The notes beneath the pieces are model-generated. The model was not told where the DNA came from. It did no database searches and worked only from the letters and a program-made list of their open reading frames with translations. From contig NZ_JAJNKB010000001.1 in NCBI RefSeq assembly GCF_021533195.1, positions 310,001 through 374,000 on the forward strand: a DNA stretch of 64,000 bases, written 5' to 3'. This stretch comes from Portibacter marinus (GTDB lineage: Bacteria > Bacteroidota > Bacteroidia > Chitinophagales > Saprospiraceae). The translations under genes were made by a program, and so were the position numbers. This document shows, piece after piece, positions 6,656 through 31,880 of this stretch. Each line of letters opens with the position of its first letter. The stretch's first letter is position 1.

Positions 6656-8398
6656 ATGATAAAGTCAATCCTTCTATCGGTTCTGCTAAGTTTGATATCT
6701 CTCCATGGTAACGGACAAACGAAGGACAGGCCAAATGTTCTTCTGATCATAACCGATGATCAGGGCTATGGAGATCTTGGATCACACGGAAATCCTTATA
6801 TATCAACACCCCATCTTGACGCTTTTACAAAACAAAGTGTCCAATTTTATAACTTCTATGTTTCTCCTGTTTGTGCTCCCACACGCGCCAGTCTGATGAC
6901 AGGAAGGTACGCCCTAAGGACAGGAGTCCGCGATACTTACAACGGTGGATCCATCATGTCTACAGAAGAATATACATTGGCTGAATTATTTCGCGATGGT
7001 GGGTATCAAACCGGAATATTTGGCAAATGGCATTTAGGAGATAACTATCCGTCCAGACCGATAGACCAGGGATTTGATGAATCAGTTATACATCTATCAG
7101 GAGGTATTGGACAAGTGGGTGACTTTACCACCTATTTTCAAAAGGACAGCAGCTATTTAGATCCGGTTTTATGGCATAATGGAAGTCAAAAAAAATATCA
7201 GGGATATTGTTCTGACATTTTCACAAATGAAGCCATAAAGTTTATAGAAGCAAATGCACAAGCTCCATTTTTTTGCTATTTGTCCTTTAATGCTCCTCAT
7301 ACACCATTGCAGGTTCCAGAAAAATACTACCGAAAGTATAAGGATTTAGAGCCTAAATTTCCTGGAGATCTTGAAAAGACATCACAACTTTCAGAACGCA
7401 ATAAGGAAGATGCTAGAAAGGTATATGCTATGGTTGAAAACATTGATGATAACGTGGGAAAAGTGATGGCATTGCTTAAAAGCCTGGCAATTGAGAACAA
7501 TACCATTGTGATTTTCATGACGGACAATGGGCCGCAGCAGTTTAGATACAATGGTGAAATGAGGGGATTAAAAGGTAGCGTTTACAGAGGCGGCACGAGA
7601 GTACCATTCTATTTAAGATATCCCCAAATCAGCAATACCAGAGCTGTATATGAAAATGTTGCTCATATAGATGTTTTGCCTTCATTGGCAGAACTATGCG
7701 AAATTGAACCAGCTAAATCAAATGTATTAGATGGTAAGAGTTTTGTACCCCTAATAGTAGCGAGAGATCCTGAGTGGAATAAACGCTCCTTATTCTTTTA
7801 CTGGACCAGGAAGTATCCGGAGCGATATCAAAATATGGCCCTATTGAAAGACTCCTTAAAATTGATAGGCCACACATCATTCGATGCTGATGTGAGTCAA
7901 TTTGAGCTTTTCAATATCGAACAAGATCCTAGCGAATCGAAAAACATTCTTTTAGAAGAACTTGTCTCTGCCAGGTCACTCAAGGAAGAGTTGGATAGCA
8001 TTTTGTCTAACCTGATTCATTCAAAAAATTTAATGAAACCACCACTCATAGAAATTGGTACCAACTATGAAAACCCGACCTTTCTGAATCGCAATGATGC
8101 CGGAGGACAACGTGGAATATGGGCACAAGAGGAAATATTCGGTAAATGGTATGCCAAAATTCATCCCGGAACTTATGATATCGATCTTAAACTTATCAAT
8201 CCTCTAACAGGAAGTGTGACTGTACTTTTGGAGTTCAATGGTCAAATTCTAAGAAAGGAGTTTGTAGTGGACAACGAAGATATGATCACATTAGAGAATG
8301 TTTATCTCGCTGAAGGTTCCGGAGATATTATTCCTTCCCTCAGAATTGATGGTCGAAACATTTTACCATTTTGGGTCAGTTTTGATAGACACCAATAA
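6656..8398 (+). CDS. Secreted Cys-type sulfatase (arylsulfatase family)
   Basis: A 580-residue sulfatase with an N-terminal signal peptide (about residues 1-20, ending GNGQ). The metal-binding pair is at D34-D35 in ITDDQGYGD, and the formylglycine signature C73-x-P-x-R77 is followed by MTGR, so Cys73 would need conversion to formylglycine by an anSME-type maturase or FGE (not in this window). A conserved GKWHLG block follows. The C-terminal 120 residues form a beta-rich extension beyond the usual catalytic core. Such enzymes in marine Bacteroidota remove sulfate esters from algal polysaccharides; the substrate cannot be read from the sequence. It starts 4 bp after leuS and probably reads from the same transcript. 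Confidence 0.9.
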   Translation: MIKSILLSVLLSLISLHGNGQTKDRPNVLLIITDDQGYGDLGSHGNPYISTPHLDAFTKQSVQFYNFYVSPVCAPTRASLMTGRYALRTGVRDTYNGGSIMSTEEYTLAELFRDGGYQTGIFGKWHLGDNYPSRPIDQGFDESVIHLSGGIGQVGDFTTYFQKDSSYLDPVLWHNGSQKKYQGYCSDIFTNEAIKFIEANAQAPFFCYLSFNAPHTPLQVPEKYYRKYKDLEPKFPGDLEKTSQLSERNKEDARKVYAMVENIDDNVGKVMALLKSLAIENNTIVIFMTDNGPQQFRYNGEMRGLKGSVYRGGTRVPFYLRYPQISNTRAVYENVAHIDVLPSLAELCEIEPAKSNVLDGKSFVPLIVARDPEWNKRSLFFYWTRKYPERYQNMALLKDSLKLIGHTSFDADVSQFELFNIEQDPSESKNILLEELVSARSLKEELDSILSNLIHSKNLMKPPLIEIGTNYENPTFLNRNDAGGQRGIWAQEEIFGKWYAKIHPGTYDIDLKLINPLTGSVTVLLEFNGQILRKEFVVDNEDMITLENVYLAEGSGDIIPSLRIDGRNILPFWVSFDRHQ

Positions 8399-8457
8399 AG
8401 AGAGATACATTTTAAGATGACTCAATCAGCTTTCTTTGAAGAGAGGTAGCAACAGCC

Positions 8458-10410
8458 TTAGTAGGAAACTATTTTAAATGTAGTCCGTCTATTCTCCTGA
8501 TGCTCTTCTTCGGTACAAGTCTCGCAATAACAGTTGATGGCAGGACGTGTGTCTCCAAAACCTCTTGCACTTAATCTCTCCTGATCAATACCTTGAGAAA
8601 CCAAATAATTTACAGCAGCCTGTGCCCTGTTTTGCGATAGGGTTATATTGTAATCATCCTTTCCTCTGCAATCCGTGTGAGAATTCAATTCAATTTCTAT
8701 ATCGGGATTATTCTCCAAAAGCTCAGCCAATTCATTCAAGGAGGGCTTAGCGTCTTCCCTAATAAAATATTCATCCAGATCGTAGTAGATGTTCTCCAAC
8801 TCGAACTCCACTCCGGTGACAATAGGCTCAAGCAGCAAACTCACAGTATAGGTCTTCTCACCTTCTTCTGGAATTTTAGTCGGTTTAAAATCGATAGATT
8901 TACTCAAATATCCTTCTTTACTGGCCACAATTTCAAGATCATCACTCGGTAGGATGTCAATAACCAGCAAACCTTTTTCACCGGAATTCAGCTGCCGACC
9001 ATTGACCTGAACAGACACGTTTTGTAAATCCTCTCTTCCGGTTACACCACTCAGCGGATCACTTTGAACAAGGTATTTATTCTGATTGGTCTTAATGGCC
9101 AAATACAATTGAAGGTTCTTAGTATCTACCTCATCAGCTACCTCTTCAGTCGATACCGGATCACTTACTATCCGCGATGCAAAAGCATAAATATCATCTC
9201 TAGCACTTTCCTTTCTGGAGGAAGTGAAGTATCCGGTTAACTCACCAGTATTCGCTCGGCGTTCAACATCAATGACAAATCCAAAATCATCGGCACCGGA
9301 ATTTATTGGCGGCCTCATATTCTCTACCCTACTCCACGAACCATCTGCTTGAACATAAGTTCTAAAAATATCAAGACCTCCCATTCCTGGCCATCCATCC
9401 GAGCTAAAATAAAGTGTATCCCTATCGATAAAAGGGAATTTTTCGTGACCAATGGTATTTACGCCAGCACCCAGTATTTGTGGCACTGTCCAACCATTCT
9501 CCAACCTTTGAACATAATAAATATCGTAGCCGCCAAAGCCCTCCTCGATCTGTGCAGAGTAAAACAATATACTATCATTTTCGTGAAGTGTCGGATGTCC
9601 ATAATTGATTCTGTCTTCAATAAAATCCAACGGCTCCGGGTCTGTCCAACTCGAACCTGAACGCGTGGCAGACATCAATTTGCAATAATCATCATCTAAT
9701 TGACTTTCACACCGGGTAAAGATGATCTCCGTATAGTCTGAGTTAAAAGTGGCGGTTCCATCATTATGCTCACTATTGATCCTGGAATCGAAAGGAATGA
9801 CTTCTTTACTGAATTGATTCACGATATACAAATCGGAAAACCACAATCCAGTCCAATTATAGATATCTTCATTCTCGTTGCTCTTCCGATCAGAGGTGAA
9901 TACCAACTGCGAACCTTCAAAAATCTGAGGGGCATAATCTGAATACTCAGAATTCTGTGCCAATTTACTAACTTCATATGGCGAATTCTCCTTTTCCGCA
10001 AGCCATTGGGATGCATTGGTGCACTCCGTAATTTCCCTGGCGATCTGAGGACTGTTTCCTACCCTTTCCTGCACAGCTTGAAAAACTCTAACTGCCTCTA
10101 CATACTGTTCATTCTTCTTTAAAGCATAAGCTAATTTTTCCAGTGCCTTATCGCCATATTTTAAATCAAAGGCTTGTTTATACCATTCGATGGCATTGGG
10201 AATATCATTAATTTCATTGTATGATTCGGCTAGAAGGTAGGCTTTCCGAGCTTTGAGCTCAGGATATTCCGTACGGTCAAATTCATCTGTCAACATATGT
10301 ATGGCAACAGAAAATTGCTTTCGGTCATAAGCCATTTCACCATCTTTGATCTTCTGTGTGTATGTACAAGAAGCAAAAATGATGGTTACAATTAAAATTA
10401 TAATTCGCAT
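8458..10410 (-). CDS. PorE-like OmpA-family lipoprotein (TPR, beta-propeller, CRD, OmpA)
   Basis: A 650-residue outer-membrane-associated lipoprotein with lipobox FASC (Cys15). Domains in order: TPR-like helices (about 20-140), a WD40/PD40-type beta-propeller with repeats such as LVFTSDRKS, LYFSSDGWP and GYFTSSRK (about 150-410), a carboxypeptidase-regulatory-like beta-sandwich (about 450-530), and a C-terminal OmpA/MotB peptidoglycan-binding domain with the motif NSHTDCRGKDDYN and paired arginines near the end. This exact order is the one described for PorE of the type IX secretion system, thought to tie the machinery to peptidoglycan. Related OmpA-propeller proteins also exist outside T9SS, so the gene name is withheld. 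It is followed by no close partner gene. Confidence 0.8.
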   Translation of the reverse strand: MRIIILIVTIIFASCTYTQKIKDGEMAYDRKQFSVAIHMLTDEFDRTEYPELKARKAYLLAESYNEINDIPNAIEWYKQAFDLKYGDKALEKLAYALKKNEQYVEAVRVFQAVQERVGNSPQIAREITECTNASQWLAEKENSPYEVSKLAQNSEYSDYAPQIFEGSQLVFTSDRKSNENEDIYNWTGLWFSDLYIVNQFSKEVIPFDSRINSEHNDGTATFNSDYTEIIFTRCESQLDDDYCKLMSATRSGSSWTDPEPLDFIEDRINYGHPTLHENDSILFYSAQIEEGFGGYDIYYVQRLENGWTVPQILGAGVNTIGHEKFPFIDRDTLYFSSDGWPGMGGLDIFRTYVQADGSWSRVENMRPPINSGADDFGFVIDVERRANTGELTGYFTSSRKESARDDIYAFASRIVSDPVSTEEVADEVDTKNLQLYLAIKTNQNKYLVQSDPLSGVTGREDLQNVSVQVNGRQLNSGEKGLLVIDILPSDDLEIVASKEGYLSKSIDFKPTKIPEEGEKTYTVSLLLEPIVTGVEFELENIYYDLDEYFIREDAKPSLNELAELLENNPDIEIELNSHTDCRGKDDYNITLSQNRAQAAVNYLVSQGIDQERLSARGFGDTRPAINCYCETCTEEEHQENRRTTFKIVSY

Positions 10411-25067: not shown

Positions 25068-25451
25068 ATGAGTAAACCTAGAGTAGTAAAAGATTACGAC
25101 AAGCTTGACCAGGATATCCAGGAGCAAATCAAACTGACCTATCCCCACGGCTTTGACAAGCATCTCATCACATTCAAAAACATTAAGAATGCCTTTGTGA
25201 GTGCACTTCCCTATGAAACTGAAGAAAAGTATTATTTAGTGAGAATGACTCGTGAAGAAGCCATCGCCATCATCGCAGATGATGATGACTACAAGGAAGG
25301 AAAACTTCGTAAAGCAGTCATGGAAGAGCTTTCTATAAAGCACGATTTTGATGATGATGACGACGACGATGAAGATGACGATGATTTGATAGATGATGAA
25401 ATTCTCGAATTCAATGAAGATGAAATGTCGGGCGAAGAGGATGACGACTAG
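25068..25451 (+). CDS. Small protein with polyaspartate-rich C-terminal tail
   Basis: A 127-residue soluble protein. Residues 1-90 are ordinary folded-looking sequence with a block KYYLVRMTREEAIAIIADDDDY, quoted here in two parts (KYYLVRMTREEAIA, IIADDDDY). Residues about 92-127 are a tail made almost only of Asp and Glu, with a run of seven Asp. The start at 25068 is the first ATG; a TTG 10 codons upstream is less likely. It is the first gene of a four-gene cassette: 3 bp separates it from the first ATP-grasp gene. The tail could be a substrate for acidic-side-chain ligation by those enzymes or a cation-binding region; this is inference. No known family recognised. Confidence 0.6.
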   Translation: MSKPRVVKDYDKLDQDIQEQIKLTYPHGFDKHLITFKNIKNAFVSALPYETEEKYYLVRMTREEAIAIIADDDDYKEGKLRKAVMEELSIKHDFDDDDDDDEDDDDLIDDEILEFNEDEMSGEEDDD

Positions 25452-25454
25452 TTC

Positions 25455-26894
25455 ATGAGAGATCTTAAAATTTACACACCAGGTTCCTTTGAGCCGGAAA
25501 ACCATTGGTACGACAAAGCCCTCAACGCTACTTTACATCCGATGGTTAGCTTTTTTCTGAATCTGGGCAATGATCGAATCGTTGAAAGATACTGCCATCT
25601 TAATCCAAGGGTCAGAAAGTCCGCGCTTGAAGACTTGTTAAAGGCAAGGCCAAAGTATTTCCGATGGGCAGGAGCTGACTTGATTAATGTTACCAGCGCA
25701 AGTGGCAATCGTAACATGGTGGTTATAGAAAACAACAGCTGTCCCTCCGGTCAGAAATCCATGCCTTTACTGCAAGATCATGAGGAAAAGGGAGGTTACA
25801 AAGAACTGATCGAAAGAACATTTTTACCCAGCTTAAAAGGCCAGAGGTTAATTACAGAAGGGAAGCTGGCGGTCCTCTTTGACAAAAATCCAATGGAAGC
25901 TTCTGGCTATGCCGCCACCATTGCTGATGTTTTAGACGAAAATGTTTACTATTTGCCCTTCACATTTGCAGATCTGGGTAAAACCCTAAAATATAAAAAA
26001 GGTGTGCTCTACTTTCTGGATGAAAAAGAAAATTGGACTCCAATTAAAGCGGCCTTTAGATATGTTACTCAAAAGCCCTGGAACCGGATCCCTATTGAGA
26101 CTAAAACGAAAATCCTGAATCCGGTTCTGGCATGTCTATCAGGTGGCAGAAACAAAATGATGGCGGCTAAGGCATATGATATTTACAATGCTGAATTGAG
26201 AGGAACCGGCTTGAAAATCGTGACTCCAGAAACCATTTGGGATGTCAGTAAAAATGAAATACCGCTTTGGGTCAGAAAAATGGGCGGACAAGCCGTGATT
26301 AAAGTTCCATATAGCAATGCAGGACAGGGAGTGTATACCATTGTCAACCAGTCCGAGTTGGATCACTTCATGTCTCAGGATTTTGAATATGATCGATTTA
26401 TCGTTCAAAGCCTAATAGGAAATTACAACTGGAGTTCATCAGGGTCAAAGGGAAAACTCTTCCATGTAGGTACCATCCCCAATCTGAAAGGACAAACCTT
26501 CGTAACTGATGTGCGAATGATGGTTAGTGCCAGCCCGGAAGGAATAAGACCATTGTGTGTTTATTCTCGAAGATCAAAGGAACCACTTTTAAATGAACTG
26601 AAGGAAGGTAGTGCGTCATGGGACATGCTGGGTACGAACCTTTCTGTCAAGTTGGGAGAAAATGAATGGGGCAGTGAAACCAATCGTTTGGTACTCATGG
26701 ACAGAAGAGATTTCAATAAATTGGGAATAGGTGTAGATGACTTGATCGAAGGATACATTCAGACCGTATTGTCCATGCTGGCTATAGATTCTATGAGCAA
26801 GAACTTGATCAACGCCAATGGAAAATTTAGAAAGCGACTTTTTGCCTCTCTAAATGATGATCCGCATTTGATTTCTGAAATTTATAAGGAATGA
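25455..26894 (+). CDS. ATP-grasp-like ligase (circularly permuted-type features)
   Basis: A 479-residue cytoplasmic protein. The block VIKVPYSNAGQGVYTI (about 281-296) looks like an ATP-grasp nucleotide loop, with Lys283 and the Gly-rich SNAGQG. Earlier, IENNSCPSGQKSMP (about 91-104) resembles the ENxxxPSG motif of circularly permuted ATP-grasp families. A late DVRMMVSASPEG segment is compatible with the metal-binding region. ATP-grasp enzymes join a carboxylate to an amine or thiol through an acyl phosphate. Its stop overlaps the start of the second ATP-grasp gene by ATGA. The family assignment is by motif only and should be tested by profile search. Confidence 0.6.
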   Translation: MRDLKIYTPGSFEPENHWYDKALNATLHPMVSFFLNLGNDRIVERYCHLNPRVRKSALEDLLKARPKYFRWAGADLINVTSASGNRNMVVIENNSCPSGQKSMPLLQDHEEKGGYKELIERTFLPSLKGQRLITEGKLAVLFDKNPMEASGYAATIADVLDENVYYLPFTFADLGKTLKYKKGVLYFLDEKENWTPIKAAFRYVTQKPWNRIPIETKTKILNPVLACLSGGRNKMMAAKAYDIYNAELRGTGLKIVTPETIWDVSKNEIPLWVRKMGGQAVIKVPYSNAGQGVYTIVNQSELDHFMSQDFEYDRFIVQSLIGNYNWSSSGSKGKLFHVGTIPNLKGQTFVTDVRMMVSASPEGIRPLCVYSRRSKEPLLNELKEGSASWDMLGTNLSVKLGENEWGSETNRLVLMDRRDFNKLGIGVDDLIEGYIQTVLSMLAIDSMSKNLINANGKFRKRLFASLNDDPHLISEIYKE

Positions 26895-27880
26895 AAATTC
26901 TTATTCTGACTGATCATCTCACTCATTCTGACACCAACTCTTTTTATCTAATAGCCAATAGTCTTTACAACAACGATTCCATTTCAGAAGTCCACATATG
27001 CAGTCGTAGTCAGAAAGAAAATGAGGGCTTTTTCGATGGTGAACAACACTTATTTCGAAGTAAGCAGCTTGACTCCAATATCGATTACGCATCTTTTGAC
27101 AACTGGATTCGAAATCAACCCCCTGTCAGGGAGGACATTTCCTATTTTGACTATATTTTACTTCGATTACCAAGACCCATACACCCTTCTTTCTTTGACT
27201 TCCTGGTAAAGATCTTCGATGAAAAAAAGATCATAAACAGACCATCGGGTATCAAAAAGATAGGGAACAAAGCATTTTTAACTGAAATCTCCAGGTTTAC
27301 TGCTCCTGTTAAGTTATTAAGGGATATTAATGATATAGAACAGTTTCGCGGGAAGTTTCCGGTTGTACTGAAACCTCTGGAAGAGTATGGCGGCAAAGGA
27401 ATCATCAAAATTGAAAATGATCTGGTTTACATTGGAAATGATCGGCAATTATCATTCCCCGAATTCAAGAATTTATATCGAAGCCAACCTCAACAATACC
27501 TGGGAATGAAATTTCTCAGGAATGTCAAAAATGGTGATAAGAGAATTGTAGTAGCGAACCGTCGAATTCTTGCCGCTACTTTGCGTTTTCCGGCTGCAGA
27601 CTCGTGGCTTTGCAATGTTGCTCAAGGCGGATCTGCTGCACTAAGTGGAATTACTGAAGAAGAAAAAGACATGATTTCATTTTTGGACCCCATTATGATT
27701 AAAGAAGGTATCTTTATGTATGGTCTGGACACACTAGAGAATGACCAGGGGCAACGAGTCATTTCTGAAATCAATGTTTTGAGTGTGGGCGGACTAGCCC
27801 CATCAGCAGAATTGTCAGGTCAAAACTTGGGAGACACATATGCAGAATTATTTGTAAACTTTGTTAAAAGAATTGGGTAG
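26891..27880 (+). CDS. GshB/RimK-type ATP-grasp ligase
   Basis: A 329-residue enzyme with the glutathione-synthetase-like ATP-grasp order: NRPSGIKKIGNKAF (about 116-129, the region preceding the ATP-grasp), PVVLKPLEEYGGKGI (about 157-171, with ATP-binding Lys161 and the Gly-rich loop), GDKRIVVANRR (about 215-225) and the Mg2+-binding SEINVLSVGG (about 292-301). Family members form peptide or amide bonds at acidic or amino-acid carboxylates. True glutathione synthetase seems unlikely because no glutamate-cysteine ligase is adjacent. It overlaps the previous gene by 4 bp and is 3 bp from the zinc-hydrolase gene. Confidence 0.8.
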   Translation: MKILILTDHLTHSDTNSFYLIANSLYNNDSISEVHICSRSQKENEGFFDGEQHLFRSKQLDSNIDYASFDNWIRNQPPVREDISYFDYILLRLPRPIHPSFFDFLVKIFDEKKIINRPSGIKKIGNKAFLTEISRFTAPVKLLRDINDIEQFRGKFPVVLKPLEEYGGKGIIKIENDLVYIGNDRQLSFPEFKNLYRSQPQQYLGMKFLRNVKNGDKRIVVANRRILAATLRFPAADSWLCNVAQGGSAALSGITEEEKDMISFLDPIMIKEGIFMYGLDTLENDQGQRVISEINVLSVGGLAPSAELSGQNLGDTYAELFVNFVKRIG

Positions 27881-27883
27881 CCA

Positions 27884-28846
27884 ATGATACACTCACACAT
27901 AAAGAAGATTGATCTTGACATATTAGGTAAGGGTAAAATTTACCATTTTTGGTTTGACCTCGTTTCTGGCCCCTTTGGCGAATATATATCACTCCCACTT
28001 ATCATTGCTAAGGGTGTGGAGCCTGGACCTACCCTTGGATTAACTGCAGCGATTCACGGTAATGAGCTCAATGGCATACCTGTTATTCATAAGGTTCTGA
28101 AAAACATTGACCCCAAAGCTTTAAAAGGGAACATCATTGCCATTCCAGTAGTAAATATCCCTTCTTTTCAGCGAAAAAAACGAAGATTCATTGATGGTAC
28201 TGACTTGAATCACATCATGCCAGGCAAGAAAAATGGAAATGTCAGCCAGGTTTATGCCTATAGGTTCACTGAACTCATCTTGCCTCATTTTGATTACCTG
28301 GTGGATTTACATACTGCCAGTTTCGGACGAGTCAACTCTTATTATGTGCGAGCAGACATGAAACAGGATACCACCCGTAAAATGGCGCTTTTTCAAGGAC
28401 CACAAATCATTGTTCATAACCCACCATCTGATGGAACACTAAGAGGAGTCGCGGCTGAAAGAAATATTCCGGCTATTACCGTCGAAGCAGGAAATCCCAA
28501 CACTTTTCAAAGAGGTATGATCAAAGACGGCAGCGAAGGTATCATGAATATTGCTATAGACCTGGGAATGATCAGCGGCAACATTATAGAAGAAGATGTC
28601 GAACCGATAATTTGCAATTCATCATATTGGATCTATACGGAACACGGCGGTTTGCTAACCGTCTATCCAAGACTTGTAGACAGAGTCATGAAGAACGATC
28701 TCATTGCAAAGCAACACAACATATTTGGAGACACCAAACAAGAATATCATGCACCTGAAGACGGTGTCATCATTGGTAAAAGCGTCAGCCCTGTGAACCA
28801 AACTGGGGGTAGAATTCTACATCTGGGCATTCCAGCCCAGACATAG
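27884..28846 (+). CDS. AstE/aspartoacylase-like zinc hydrolase (M14 family)
   Basis: A 320-residue metallohydrolase of the succinylglutamate desuccinylase/aspartoacylase group. The zinc ligands are visible as H58-G-N-E61 and H143 in DLHTASFG, the substrate-binding segment as GTDLNH (about 105-110), and the catalytic Glu as E201 in ITVEAGNP. Such enzymes cleave an amide bond next to an acidic amino acid. Placed last in an operon with two ATP-grasp ligases and an acidic-tail protein, it could trim or reverse what the ligases add. It ends 10 bp from the convergent M16 protease gene. Confidence 0.88.
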   Translation: MIHSHIKKIDLDILGKGKIYHFWFDLVSGPFGEYISLPLIIAKGVEPGPTLGLTAAIHGNELNGIPVIHKVLKNIDPKALKGNIIAIPVVNIPSFQRKKRRFIDGTDLNHIMPGKKNGNVSQVYAYRFTELILPHFDYLVDLHTASFGRVNSYYVRADMKQDTTRKMALFQGPQIIVHNPPSDGTLRGVAAERNIPAITVEAGNPNTFQRGMIKDGSEGIMNIAIDLGMISGNIIEEDVEPIICNSSYWIYTEHGGLLTVYPRLVDRVMKNDLIAKQHNIFGDTKQEYHAPEDGVIIGKSVSPVNQTGGRILHLGIPAQT

Positions 28847-28856
28847 AAGAGTATTC

Positions 28857-31800
28857 TTAATTACTGGGTTGATCACCAGGTTGCATTACGATTCTCATAT
28901 AATTGCCAGATCCAAAATATTTAGAGGCGGCATCTTTAATATCATCAGAATCTAGTTCATGAATCGATTGCTCTAGTTTATCCAAACTGATGGTAGTAGG
29001 ACTCAAGTCATTAGAATAGACATACTCCAATCTTGATCTCCAGTAATTGTTTTCCTTTAGATTCTTAATCATTGACTGTCGTTGAGTTTCTTTCACCTTG
29101 GTCAGATCTTTTTCTTCTGCACCTGACTGCACTGCATTCTGTACGTCCTGCATTGCTGTAGTAATTAATTCTTCTGTATTCTCAGGATCACAATTGAAAG
29201 AAACAGTGATGGTATATCTCTCTTCTGGAATTTTGCTGGCATTTCCACTCACACGGACTCCGTATACACCACCTTTATCCTCCCTCATAGACTCTCTCAT
29301 TTTGATTCGTAGTACGTCAAGCATCGCATTGAAATGATAACTATTCTCCGGTGTCCATTCGAAAGGGCCATGGAAAAATAATTCTACCTGAGTCTTAGGC
29401 GCTTCACCCATCTTAAATTCATCTTTGATTTCACCTTCTACGTAATCTATATTTCTATTCTTCCAGGTTTCCTCCATGCCCTTTGATGGTAAATTACCAA
29501 GGTACTTCTGAGCCAATTCTTTTAATCGATCTTCTTCAAAATTTCCCACAAAAATGAATGTAAATCCACTGGCATCTGCAAATCTTTCATTGTATATTTC
29601 CAAAGCCCGATCAAGATCTATACTCATAATGTCATCAACAGACGGAAATCCAACTCGTGGATGATTGTCCGTTTTTTTCTTCATGGCATAATCCATAAAA
29701 TAATATTGTGGATTAGACATCAAATTCTTATAAATGTTAGACTGTTTATTGATAAAAGACTTAAAAGCCTGCTCATCCCTTCTCACATCCGTGAAGTACA
29801 TGTAAATCAGCTGCATCAGTGTTTCTAAGTCTTTAGGAGCACTGGACCCTGATAGTCCTTCGAAATTGGTACCGATATATGGATAGACGCCTACTGTTTT
29901 ACCTGTCAACAATTTTTCAAGATCAGTCGTAGTAAAATCACCAAGACCGGATTCATTGACAATTCTAGCAGCATTAGAGGCATTAAAATAGTCTGCATCA
30001 TCATATAGACTGGTACCACCTTCACTGGAAGCCGTCATCAAAATCTCGTCATTTTTGAAATCAGTCGGCTTCATGACCACTCTAACACCATTGGCCAGCT
30101 CAAATTCCTTGACATCTACCTCTTCAAAGTGTTCGACCTCTTCAATGGCGACAGGGTCTAATTCCTCATCAAAAAGAGGAACATCAATGACTTTATCTTC
30201 ATAAGGCTCAATTTCTTTTTCTTCTATACTCTCAACAATAGCCAATAAATCTTCTTCCGAAGGCAAAGGAACATCCTCCTTTTTAGGAGCGGTAACAACA
30301 ATGACTCTGTTCTCAGGTGTAATCCAATTTTCTGCAAGTCGATTAATTTCATCCACTGTTATGGTTGGTAGATATTCTTCGTAGTATTCTAGTTGTTGGT
30401 CAATCGAAGGGATCGGATTATCTCTTAAGTAATGATAAACATACCTGGTTACTAATCTTCGGGAATCTATCTTATCCTGCTCCTTAGCCTGCCTTTTAAT
30501 ATTTTCCATCATGGCTATCTTTTGGCGCTCTAATTCAGATTCATTAAAGCCATGCCTGAGCGCCCTTTCATTTTCAGTTAATAAAACCTCAAGTGCACTT
30601 TCCACCTTACCTTCCGGCACATTCGCAAATGAAGTATAGGTATCTAAATCTCCAACATCACGACCATATCCTGAATAAGCAAAGATAAATGGCGGTTCTG
30701 CCTGCTTGGTGATTTCATCCAGACGATTGTTCAACATCCGATTGTACAGTTGGCGCACCAGTGATTCTCTGTAATCCCTGTCTGTTCTTACGGCAATGTG
30801 ATCATGTTTGTACATTAATCTCAATATGGTGAAAGCTGCTTCTTTATCAGAATTGATAGAAACAAAAGTTTCTTCATGTTTAGGCACTACATTATCTTTC
30901 TTTTCTCGCTTAACTGTAGCAGGTGGGATTGGTGCAAAGAGTTCTTTTATTTTTTGCTCAGTTTCCTTCACATCTATGTCCCCTACCACCGCAACTGCCA
31001 TCAAATCTGGTCGATACCAATCTCTGTAAAATCTCCTGATGGTCTCGTAATCCGCATTATTAATAATTTCTGGATCCCCAATAGGCAATCTCTCAGCATA
31101 TCGCGATCCATGGTACATGATGGGAAAGTAATTCTTTTGCATTCTTTGCTCACCACTTAATCTGGTCCTCCATTCTGATGTCACCACACCCCTTTCTTTA
31201 TCTATCTCTTCTTCATCAAAAGATATTCCATTTGCCCAGTCTGAAAGTACCAATAATCCCTTATCAAAGAGCTCCATACTATCTGTTCTGACCTGTAACA
31301 TGTAAACGGTTTCGTCAAAACTTGTATAAGCATTTAAATCAGGACCAAACTTTGTTCCAATGCTTTCAAGAAAGTCTACCAATTCATTCTTTTCAAAATT
31401 CTTTGAGCCATTAAAGGCCATATGCTCAACAAAATGAGCAACGCCCAATTGGTCATCATCTTCTTGCATCGATCCCGCATCTACGATCAAACGAAGTTCT
31501 GCACGATCATCTGGCTTTTGATTACTCTGAATGTAGTAGCGCATACCGTTAGCTAAGCTTCCGATTACGACGTCATCGTCAGCTGGTATGGGATCTTCGC
31601 TTAAATCCTCAATACCTTCTTCAACCATCTCCATAGTTTCATCTACCTCAACGACCACAGTCTTAGCAGCCTGATCCATTCCTTCCATGGCTTCTTCAGC
31701 TTCTTCTGAAATAGCTTCACCAGCTTCATCCAAGGCCTCTTCTGCATCATCAGCAGTCTGTGTAAGATCTTCTTCGACCTCTTCGACAGTGTTGTCTATT

Positions 31801-31880
31801 TTTTGGGAAGTCTTTGGGGAACAGGAATTGATTAGGAAGACAAGTAGTAATAATATAAGTGTGTTCAATTTGAAATTCAT
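28857..31880 (-). CDS. M16 family zinc metalloprotease (tandem domains, lipoprotein)
   Basis: A 1007-residue periplasmic/outer-membrane lipoprotein (lipobox INSC, Cys20). Residues about 31-95 are an almost uninterrupted acidic helix of Glu, Asp and Ala. The first M16 domain carries the inverted zinc motif HFVEH (149-153) with the third ligand Glu in the EEEIDKERGVV region; the second half repeats the M16 fold without a motif and completes the clamshell (pitrilysin/insulinase type). Such enzymes degrade medium-length peptides. The acidic linker is unusual for the family. Confidence 0.93.
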   Translation of the reverse strand: MNFKLNTLILLLLVFLINSCSPKTSQKIDNTVEEVEEDLTQTADDAEEALDEAGEAISEEAEEAMEGMDQAAKTVVVEVDETMEMVEEGIEDLSEDPIPADDDVVIGSLANGMRYYIQSNQKPDDRAELRLIVDAGSMQEDDDQLGVAHFVEHMAFNGSKNFEKNELVDFLESIGTKFGPDLNAYTSFDETVYMLQVRTDSMELFDKGLLVLSDWANGISFDEEEIDKERGVVTSEWRTRLSGEQRMQKNYFPIMYHGSRYAERLPIGDPEIINNADYETIRRFYRDWYRPDLMAVAVVGDIDVKETEQKIKELFAPIPPATVKREKKDNVVPKHEETFVSINSDKEAAFTILRLMYKHDHIAVRTDRDYRESLVRQLYNRMLNNRLDEITKQAEPPFIFAYSGYGRDVGDLDTYTSFANVPEGKVESALEVLLTENERALRHGFNESELERQKIAMMENIKRQAKEQDKIDSRRLVTRYVYHYLRDNPIPSIDQQLEYYEEYLPTITVDEINRLAENWITPENRVIVVTAPKKEDVPLPSEEDLLAIVESIEEKEIEPYEDKVIDVPLFDEELDPVAIEEVEHFEEVDVKEFELANGVRVVMKPTDFKNDEILMTASSEGGTSLYDDADYFNASNAARIVNESGLGDFTTTDLEKLLTGKTVGVYPYIGTNFEGLSGSSAPKDLETLMQLIYMYFTDVRRDEQAFKSFINKQSNIYKNLMSNPQYYFMDYAMKKKTDNHPRVGFPSVDDIMSIDLDRALEIYNERFADASGFTFIFVGNFEEDRLKELAQKYLGNLPSKGMEETWKNRNIDYVEGEIKDEFKMGEAPKTQVELFFHGPFEWTPENSYHFNAMLDVLRIKMRESMREDKGGVYGVRVSGNASKIPEERYTITVSFNCDPENTEELITTAMQDVQNAVQSGAEEKDLTKVKETQRQSMIKNLKENNYWRSRLEYVYSNDLSPTTISLDKLEQSIHELDSDDIKDAASKYFGSGNYMRIVMQPGDQPSN

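Follow-up and report, generated by a model that had tools for sequence, protein, structure and literature searches.

A Portibacter marinus cassette of two ATP-grasp ligases, a zinc amidohydrolase and an acidic protein, with relatives linked to polyamine genes

The cassette and the products of its genes

In this work, we analyse a four-gene cassette at positions 25068-28846 of a 64,000-nucleotide stretch of the Portibacter marinus genome (contig NZ_JAJNKB010000001.1, positions 310,001 to 374,000), hereafter called the window. Its four intact open reading frames all lie on the + strand with spacings of 3, -4 and 3 bp, as originally described, and are named P1 to P4 in order. P1 (25068-25451, +) is a small acidic protein of 127 aa, with an N-terminal domain of about residues 1-90 followed by an Asp/Glu tail; P2 (25455-26894, +) is an ATP-grasp ligase of 479 aa without a Pfam family, possibly circularly permuted; P3 (26891-27880, +) is a GshB-like ATP-grasp ligase of 329 aa; and P4 (27884-28846, +) is a zinc amidohydrolase of the AstE/aspartoacylase family, 320 aa long. 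Across lineages, and not in the window's own genome, P2 clusters recurrently with polyamine biosynthesis genes. NCBI taxonomy places Portibacter in the Saprospirales, family Haliscomenobacteraceae, and most P2 relatives are assigned to Saprospiraceae.

No Pfam family matched P2 at E ≤ 1. An AlphaFold model based on 26 sequences (predicted local distance difference test, pLDDT, 82.5; predicted template modelling score, pTM, 0.88) identifies P2 as an ATP-grasp enzyme, with that fold extending over most of the protein. The top Foldseek matches were 3n6x (a putative glutathionylspermidine synthase), human glutathione synthetase and E. coli YgiC (7uka), and the 14 matches at E ≤ 0.001 were named glutathione synthetases, GspS/YgiC, RimK, LysX/ArgX or Ddl. 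The best VIA-align score was obtained against GshA 3k1t (Z 16.6, 327 residues aligned), with Z values of 12-14 for LysX, ArgX, Ddl, YjfC, GspS/A and the plant and human glutathione synthetases; GspS/A 2ioa and YjfC 7uk6 scored 12.9 each and 3n6x 11.5. Structure matches therefore bear out the original description of P2 as ATP-grasp-like, where Pfam gives nothing. At the sequence level, hhalign comparisons of P2 with single sequences of YgiC and Gss were not significant, sequence membership of PF03738 was not found, and the P2 profile produced three chance-like matches among PDB sequences.

Two segments of P2, invariant in 26/26 and 10/10 aligned rows, carry its probable active-site residues. 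By analogy, we take E92-x-N94 (25728-25736, +) to be the metal-binding E-x-N motif and K283 in AVIKVPYSNAGQGV (26301-26303, +), ahead of a glycine-rich loop, to be the ATP-binding lysine. Canonical ATP-grasp enzymes have the E-x-N motif at the C-terminal side, whereas in P2 E92 and N94 precede the K283 segment. Moreover, residues 1-231 of the 281 of LysX 3vpd align to P2 137-446, leaving the C-terminal end of LysX unmatched, and the sole NCBIfam hint is a weak match of the C-terminal piece of the MptN profile to P2 70-100. These three observations fit the circular permutation proposed in the original prediction without proving it.

The identities first suggested for P3 and P4 were confirmed. 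P3 matches the Pfam families GSH-S_ATP (PF02955, 4.9e-22) and RimK (7.4e-5), in agreement with a GshB/RimK-type ligase, and its family profile matches E. coli GshB 1gsa at 7.5e-30; K161, E293 and N295 are invariant in 10/10 rows. It scores below the equivalog cut-offs for glutathione synthetase-type models PRK05246 (107.4 versus 272 bits) and TIGR01380 (96.2 versus 299.05). P4 matches AstE_AspA_cat (PF24827, 9e-33, 113.9 bits against a cut-off of 25), and its residues H58, E61, H143 and E201 are intact and invariant in 12/12 rows. Among its nearest solved relatives is DoeB (6twl, 2.7e-20; 6twm, 3.7e-20), the N2-acetyl-2,4-diaminobutyrate deacetylase, which by its name takes acetyl off a diamino acid. 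Residues 37-308 of the 320 in P4, the greater part of the protein, align to DoeB, but the score of 90.6 bits falls far below the DoeB equivalog cut-off of 402.7.

RimK-AstE pairs likewise have an ATP-grasp ligase beside an AstE-type hydrolase, and we rejected the idea that the cassette is an ordinary one: P3 resembles GshB more closely than RimK, and the genome has such a pair elsewhere. On contig C22, at about 185 kb (L162), a RimK gene (PF08443, 3.1e-57) directly adjoins a gene for an AstE-type hydrolase (PF24827, 4.9e-33).

Recurrence of P2 and its linkage to polyamine genes

A contig scan for P2 kept the best 80 of 208 relatives (the 80 scan loci), in which neighbours were named by eye, save those confirmed by family searches. 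A GshB-like P3 lies near P2 in 72 of these loci and an AstE-like P4 in 71, several of the misses being contig ends, whereas P1 adjoins P2 only in a subset. The set of P2 to P4 is thus conserved and not a chance arrangement, P1 being conserved with it only in part. P2 occurs with P4 but without P3 at L011, L012, L013, L155 and L157.

Within the window's family (genomes with group code f1), a sample of 120 genomes contained P2 in 71 (one a fragment), P1 in 43, a deoxyhypusine-synthase-like (homospermidine) gene, hereafter DHS, in 37, and nspC in 54 (52 over the cut-off and two partial). No P1 match was found in 40 of the 71 P2-positive genomes, in a search that may miss divergent P1 copies such as that of G109. 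Outside the family P2 is rare. In a phylum sample of 296 genomes, searched for P2 at E ≤ 0.001, it was found in eight, including the window's own genome and one doubtful fragment; the family of G084 (code f5, presumably flavobacterial) has it in 6 of 249 genomes, at seven places, and in the class of G109 the 197 genomes yielded a single full match and a further one that was weak and partial. The window's P2 is 87% identical to that of Portibacter lacus, and the same identity is seen in the same-genus genome G154. Its own genome contains a single P2 match, the one in the window, and no match was found on plasmids.

Linkage was scored as the presence of speA, agmatinase or DHS within the fetched flank of P2, at 92 loci from which L002-L007 and L015 (copies of L009-L014) and the doubtful fragment L008 had been excluded. 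By this measure 29 of the 92 loci are linked, in 21 gene orders, a lower bound since many loci, and some of the orders, are cut by contig ends; the proportion is 19/50 for loci of 13.3 kb or more and 10/42 for shorter ones. On a quick tree of P2 from the same loci, in which long branches are flagged as meeting, the linked state requires at least 22 changes, 12 of them forced by starred branches, a count that contig ends inflate. Shuffled labels gave a mean of 25.0 changes, and in 44 of 500 shuffles the number came down to the observed 22, indicating that the linkage label is barely clustered on the tree. At six of the 92 loci P2 stands alone.

Besides P2 to P4 themselves, the commonest neighbours in the 80 scan loci were speA (24), an arginase-family agmatinase (19), DHS (15), P1 (13) and a DksA/TraR-like gene (13), the last label scoring 22.6, just under the Pfam cut-off of 24.9. 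Several names were secured by scores over cut-offs, namely agmatinase (195.4 versus 174.3 bits), DS (PF01916, 144.2 versus 27) and nspC (500.8 versus 409.05); the speA neighbour is a decarboxylase by PF02784 and lies below the speA equivalog cut-offs.

The association was first seen at two distant loci, L012 and L013. Both hold P2, P4 and a relative of P1 in one cluster with the genes for arginine decarboxylase and agmatinase, joined at L013 by DHS. The arrangements vary widely. The order is P2-speA-speB-DHS-P1-P3-P4 at L042, L051 and L066 and speA-speB-DHS-P1-P2-P3-P4 at L082, while speA-speB-DHS is divergent at L033, L058 and L073 and convergent at L090. A later test, made after the linkage idea, used the family of G084, of whose seven P2 places one (L013, in G084 itself) was known beforehand and is linked. 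Four of the six new places (L154, L155, L157 and L158) lie in or beside a speA-speB-DHS-P1 operon, although P1 was not found in the L157 neighbourhood. At L158 the order is speA-speB-P2-DHS-P1 with overlapping ends: speB ends at 7981, P2 occupies 7981-9402 and DHS starts at 9399. G441 has two copies of P2, that of L158 within the polyamine operon and that of L156 alone.

Gene content in the family sample points the same way. P2 and DHS are both present in 27 genomes and lie within 12 kb of each other in 17, of which 14 have them on one strand; within the same distance lie P1 and DHS in 14 of the 22 genomes with both, and P2 and P1 in 17 of 31. DHS or nspC is found in 63 of the 71 P2-positive genomes versus 28 of the 49 P2-negative ones; Fisher tests on these co-occurrences overstate independence, since the genomes are kin. 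DHS and nspC never occur together (0/120), as expected if they represent alternative triamine routes.

A divergent clade of P2, formed by L014 and L159 (46-49% identity to the window's P2), adjoins a TauE/SafE-type permease and a response regulator, according to Pfam for L014 and by eye for L159. The two stretches contain no P3, P4 or polyamine genes.

The acidic protein

P1 is predicted to fold into a domain at its N-terminus (about residues 1-90) and to end in a tail that is modelled with low confidence and is probably disordered (model pTM 0.59). Its tail had been called almost pure Asp/Glu; it is acidic, but that wording is somewhat strong, as 25 of the last 36 residues are Asp or Glu. Pfam gave only two matches, both far below the cut-off, and for this model the best Z in the fold search was 4.7 and Foldseek found nothing at E ≤ 0.001. 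Among the aligned rows P1 measures 82-147 aa, with a conserved domain and an acidic tail of any length whose last residues are not conserved. The view of P1 as a ribosomal protein, part of the original prediction, was rejected, no result supporting it.

In the phylum sample, P1 was found at 28 places in 27 genomes, 23 of which lack a P2 match. Twenty of the 28 neighbourhoods were fetched, one of them from the window's family (L123), without a polyamine gene. Among the 19 loci outside that family, DHS is present in 14, in 13 of them at most 70 bp from P1; in the remaining five, the queries for speA, agmatinase and DHS all found nothing. Because P1 is found near DHS, mostly without P2 and with a tail that is not conserved, it goes with polyamine synthesis rather than with the ligases.

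Two further genes recur in these surroundings. An 86-aa protein of L013, without a Pfam family, has relatives near P1 or polyamine genes in L013, L124, L132, L154 and L157, and glyoxalase-family genes are found in L012, L013, L137, L140, L141, L142 and L154.

A possible polyamine conjugation pathway and its alternatives

Based on these data, P2 and P1 very probably belong, genetically, with polyamine metabolism, and their recurrent linkage to polyamine biosynthesis goes beyond what the sequence of the window alone could show. We propose, with a probability only somewhat above one half (about 0.55), that the cassette is an operon for the conjugation and deconjugation of polyamines. Gene context and fold suggest P2 as the candidate peptide-polyamine ligase. 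Using ATP, it would activate a carboxylate as an acyl phosphate and transfer it to a primary amine of the polyamine, which would be putrescine, homospermidine or spermidine; the carboxylate is most likely that of an amino acid or a short peptide. In lineages that have it, P3 may add or build a further residue of the conjugated peptide, and P4 would hydrolyse the amide and free the polyamine. P1 would be a polyamine-operon protein and not a substrate, perhaps binding polyamines or acting in regulation through its polyanionic surface. We infer the polyamine as amine substrate, the acyl group, the order of P2 and P3 and the whole role of P1, while the chemistry is modelled on what is known of the enzyme families.

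A similar make-and-break logic may be recognised in E. coli GspS/A (Gss), with which P2 shares the ATP-grasp fold. The hydrolase of GspS/A is a cysteine amidase, in contrast to the AstE-type enzyme of the cassette. Other differences are that the cassette encodes separate proteins, that its relatives sit with the agmatinase/homospermidine pathway and that P2 has no significant sequence similarity to GspS/A. P2 is of the same fold class as the peptide-spermidine ligases YgiC, so annotated, and YjfC (7uka and 7uk6 being among its top matches), although the sequence comparison, which covered YgiC, was not significant. PMC12568646 refers to both YgiC and YjfC as peptidylpolyamine synthetases. Others have read the clustering of hss with gss as a potential to make glutathionylhomospermidine, and homospermidine is the product of the DHS-like SpeY (PMC9992855, PMC10407285). 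The titles and abstract beginnings among the literature matches listed name no operon such as this one, and a prior mention is possible.

Several observations weigh against polyamine conjugation. Given the lack of significant sequence similarity to YgiC and Gss, the kinship of P2 rests on its fold, which is common to ATP-grasp ligases of many specificities, and the structure that it matches with the highest Z belongs to a gamma-glutamylcysteine synthetase and not to a polyamine ligase. In the fetched DNA, 63 of the 92 P2 loci show no polyamine link, and L156 (the second copy of G441), the divergent L159 (G502) and L014 (G269) are all unlinked, while P4 was not seen in the neighbourhood of L158. 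DHS is absent from 44 of the 71 P2-positive genomes, 36 of which have nspC and eight neither gene; the nspC link is itself weak, with three loci that have a convergent agmatinase and nspC seen in two of them. Finally, the queries for speA, agmatinase and DHS found nothing in the window; in the same genome these three genes are grouped with a GNAT/nitrilase gene on contig C33, apart from the cassette.

The GshA match also underlies a different explanation, in which P2 (GshA-like) and P3 (GshB-like) produce a tripeptide resembling glutathione, or some other small peptide, that P4 degrades, the polyamine linkage reflecting shared regulation. P3 is indeed nearest to GshB, and the genome's only other PF02955 match is the RimK of contig C22. 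P2 differs from GshA of the 3k1t type by the lack of any Pfam match and by its polyamine-operon context, which takes many forms and includes a position between speB and DHS; the five loci with P2 and P4 have no adjacent GshB-like partner; and the genome encodes another GCS2-family protein, with CBS domains (PF04107, 34.8 versus 21 bits), a possible first ligase. We therefore regard this explanation as unlikely. At about 380 kb of contig C44 (L160), the same genome encodes the 639-aa protein that joins a GCS2-like domain to CBS domains.

Alternatively, the product of the operon could be a secondary metabolite built on a polyamine, for instance an amide resembling a siderophore or an inhibitor, in place of a reversible storage or redox conjugate. 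A parallel exists in E-64, for which PMC12568646 describes an ATP-grasp enzyme, folding nearest to homoglutathione synthetase, YgiC and YjfC, that makes a pseudodipeptide, and an ANL-family enzyme sharing the amide-forming steps that also bring in the polyamine. Among the neighbour clusters present in at least six of the 80 scan loci, however, no tailoring enzyme was recognised by eye, one of the clusters being a mechanosensitive channel, and a gene that is as widespread and conserved within one family as P2 (71 of 120 genomes, one a fragment) suits core metabolism better, which makes a secondary metabolite quite improbable.

The working model of the original prediction, in which the acidic tail of P1 is extended by the ligases and trimmed by P4, was rejected as very improbable: RimK-type ligases do modify protein tails, and P1 and P2 are neighbours in the window, at locus L015 of Portibacter lacus and at some other loci, but P1 is widespread without the ligase (23 of 27 genomes), the outcome that the prediction itself had named as refuting, P2 often occurs without P1 (40 of 71), the length and last residues of the tail vary freely and the RimK-AstE pair of this genome is a separate one. 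Our results agree better with the alternative offered alongside that model, where the enzymes make a free metabolite and the acidic protein is a carrier or regulator.

Returning to polyamine conjugation, P2 represents an ATP-grasp family that is highly conserved and matches nothing in Pfam, and for which the gene neighbours provide a concrete and testable pathway. If correct, the proposal would reveal a new means by which bacteria store, mask or functionalise polyamines. It would also offer the first clue to the function of the acidic protein, which in 13 of 19 loci elsewhere lies beside a homospermidine-type gene. Tentatively, and at somewhat less than even odds, the operon might represent an undescribed pathway of Bacteroidota, in which a new, permuted ATP-grasp family makes peptidyl-homospermidine or peptidyl-spermidine, a zinc amidase releases it and the polyanionic P1 handles the free polyamine. 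Such conjugates could replace glutathionylspermidine where no canonical glutathione synthetase gene is found.

Downstream of the cassette, a convergent gene on the - strand (28857-31880) encodes an M16-type peptidase (PF00675, 2.4e-32; PF05193, 1.4e-38) which, judged by eye, begins like a lipoprotein and continues into a long acidic linker.

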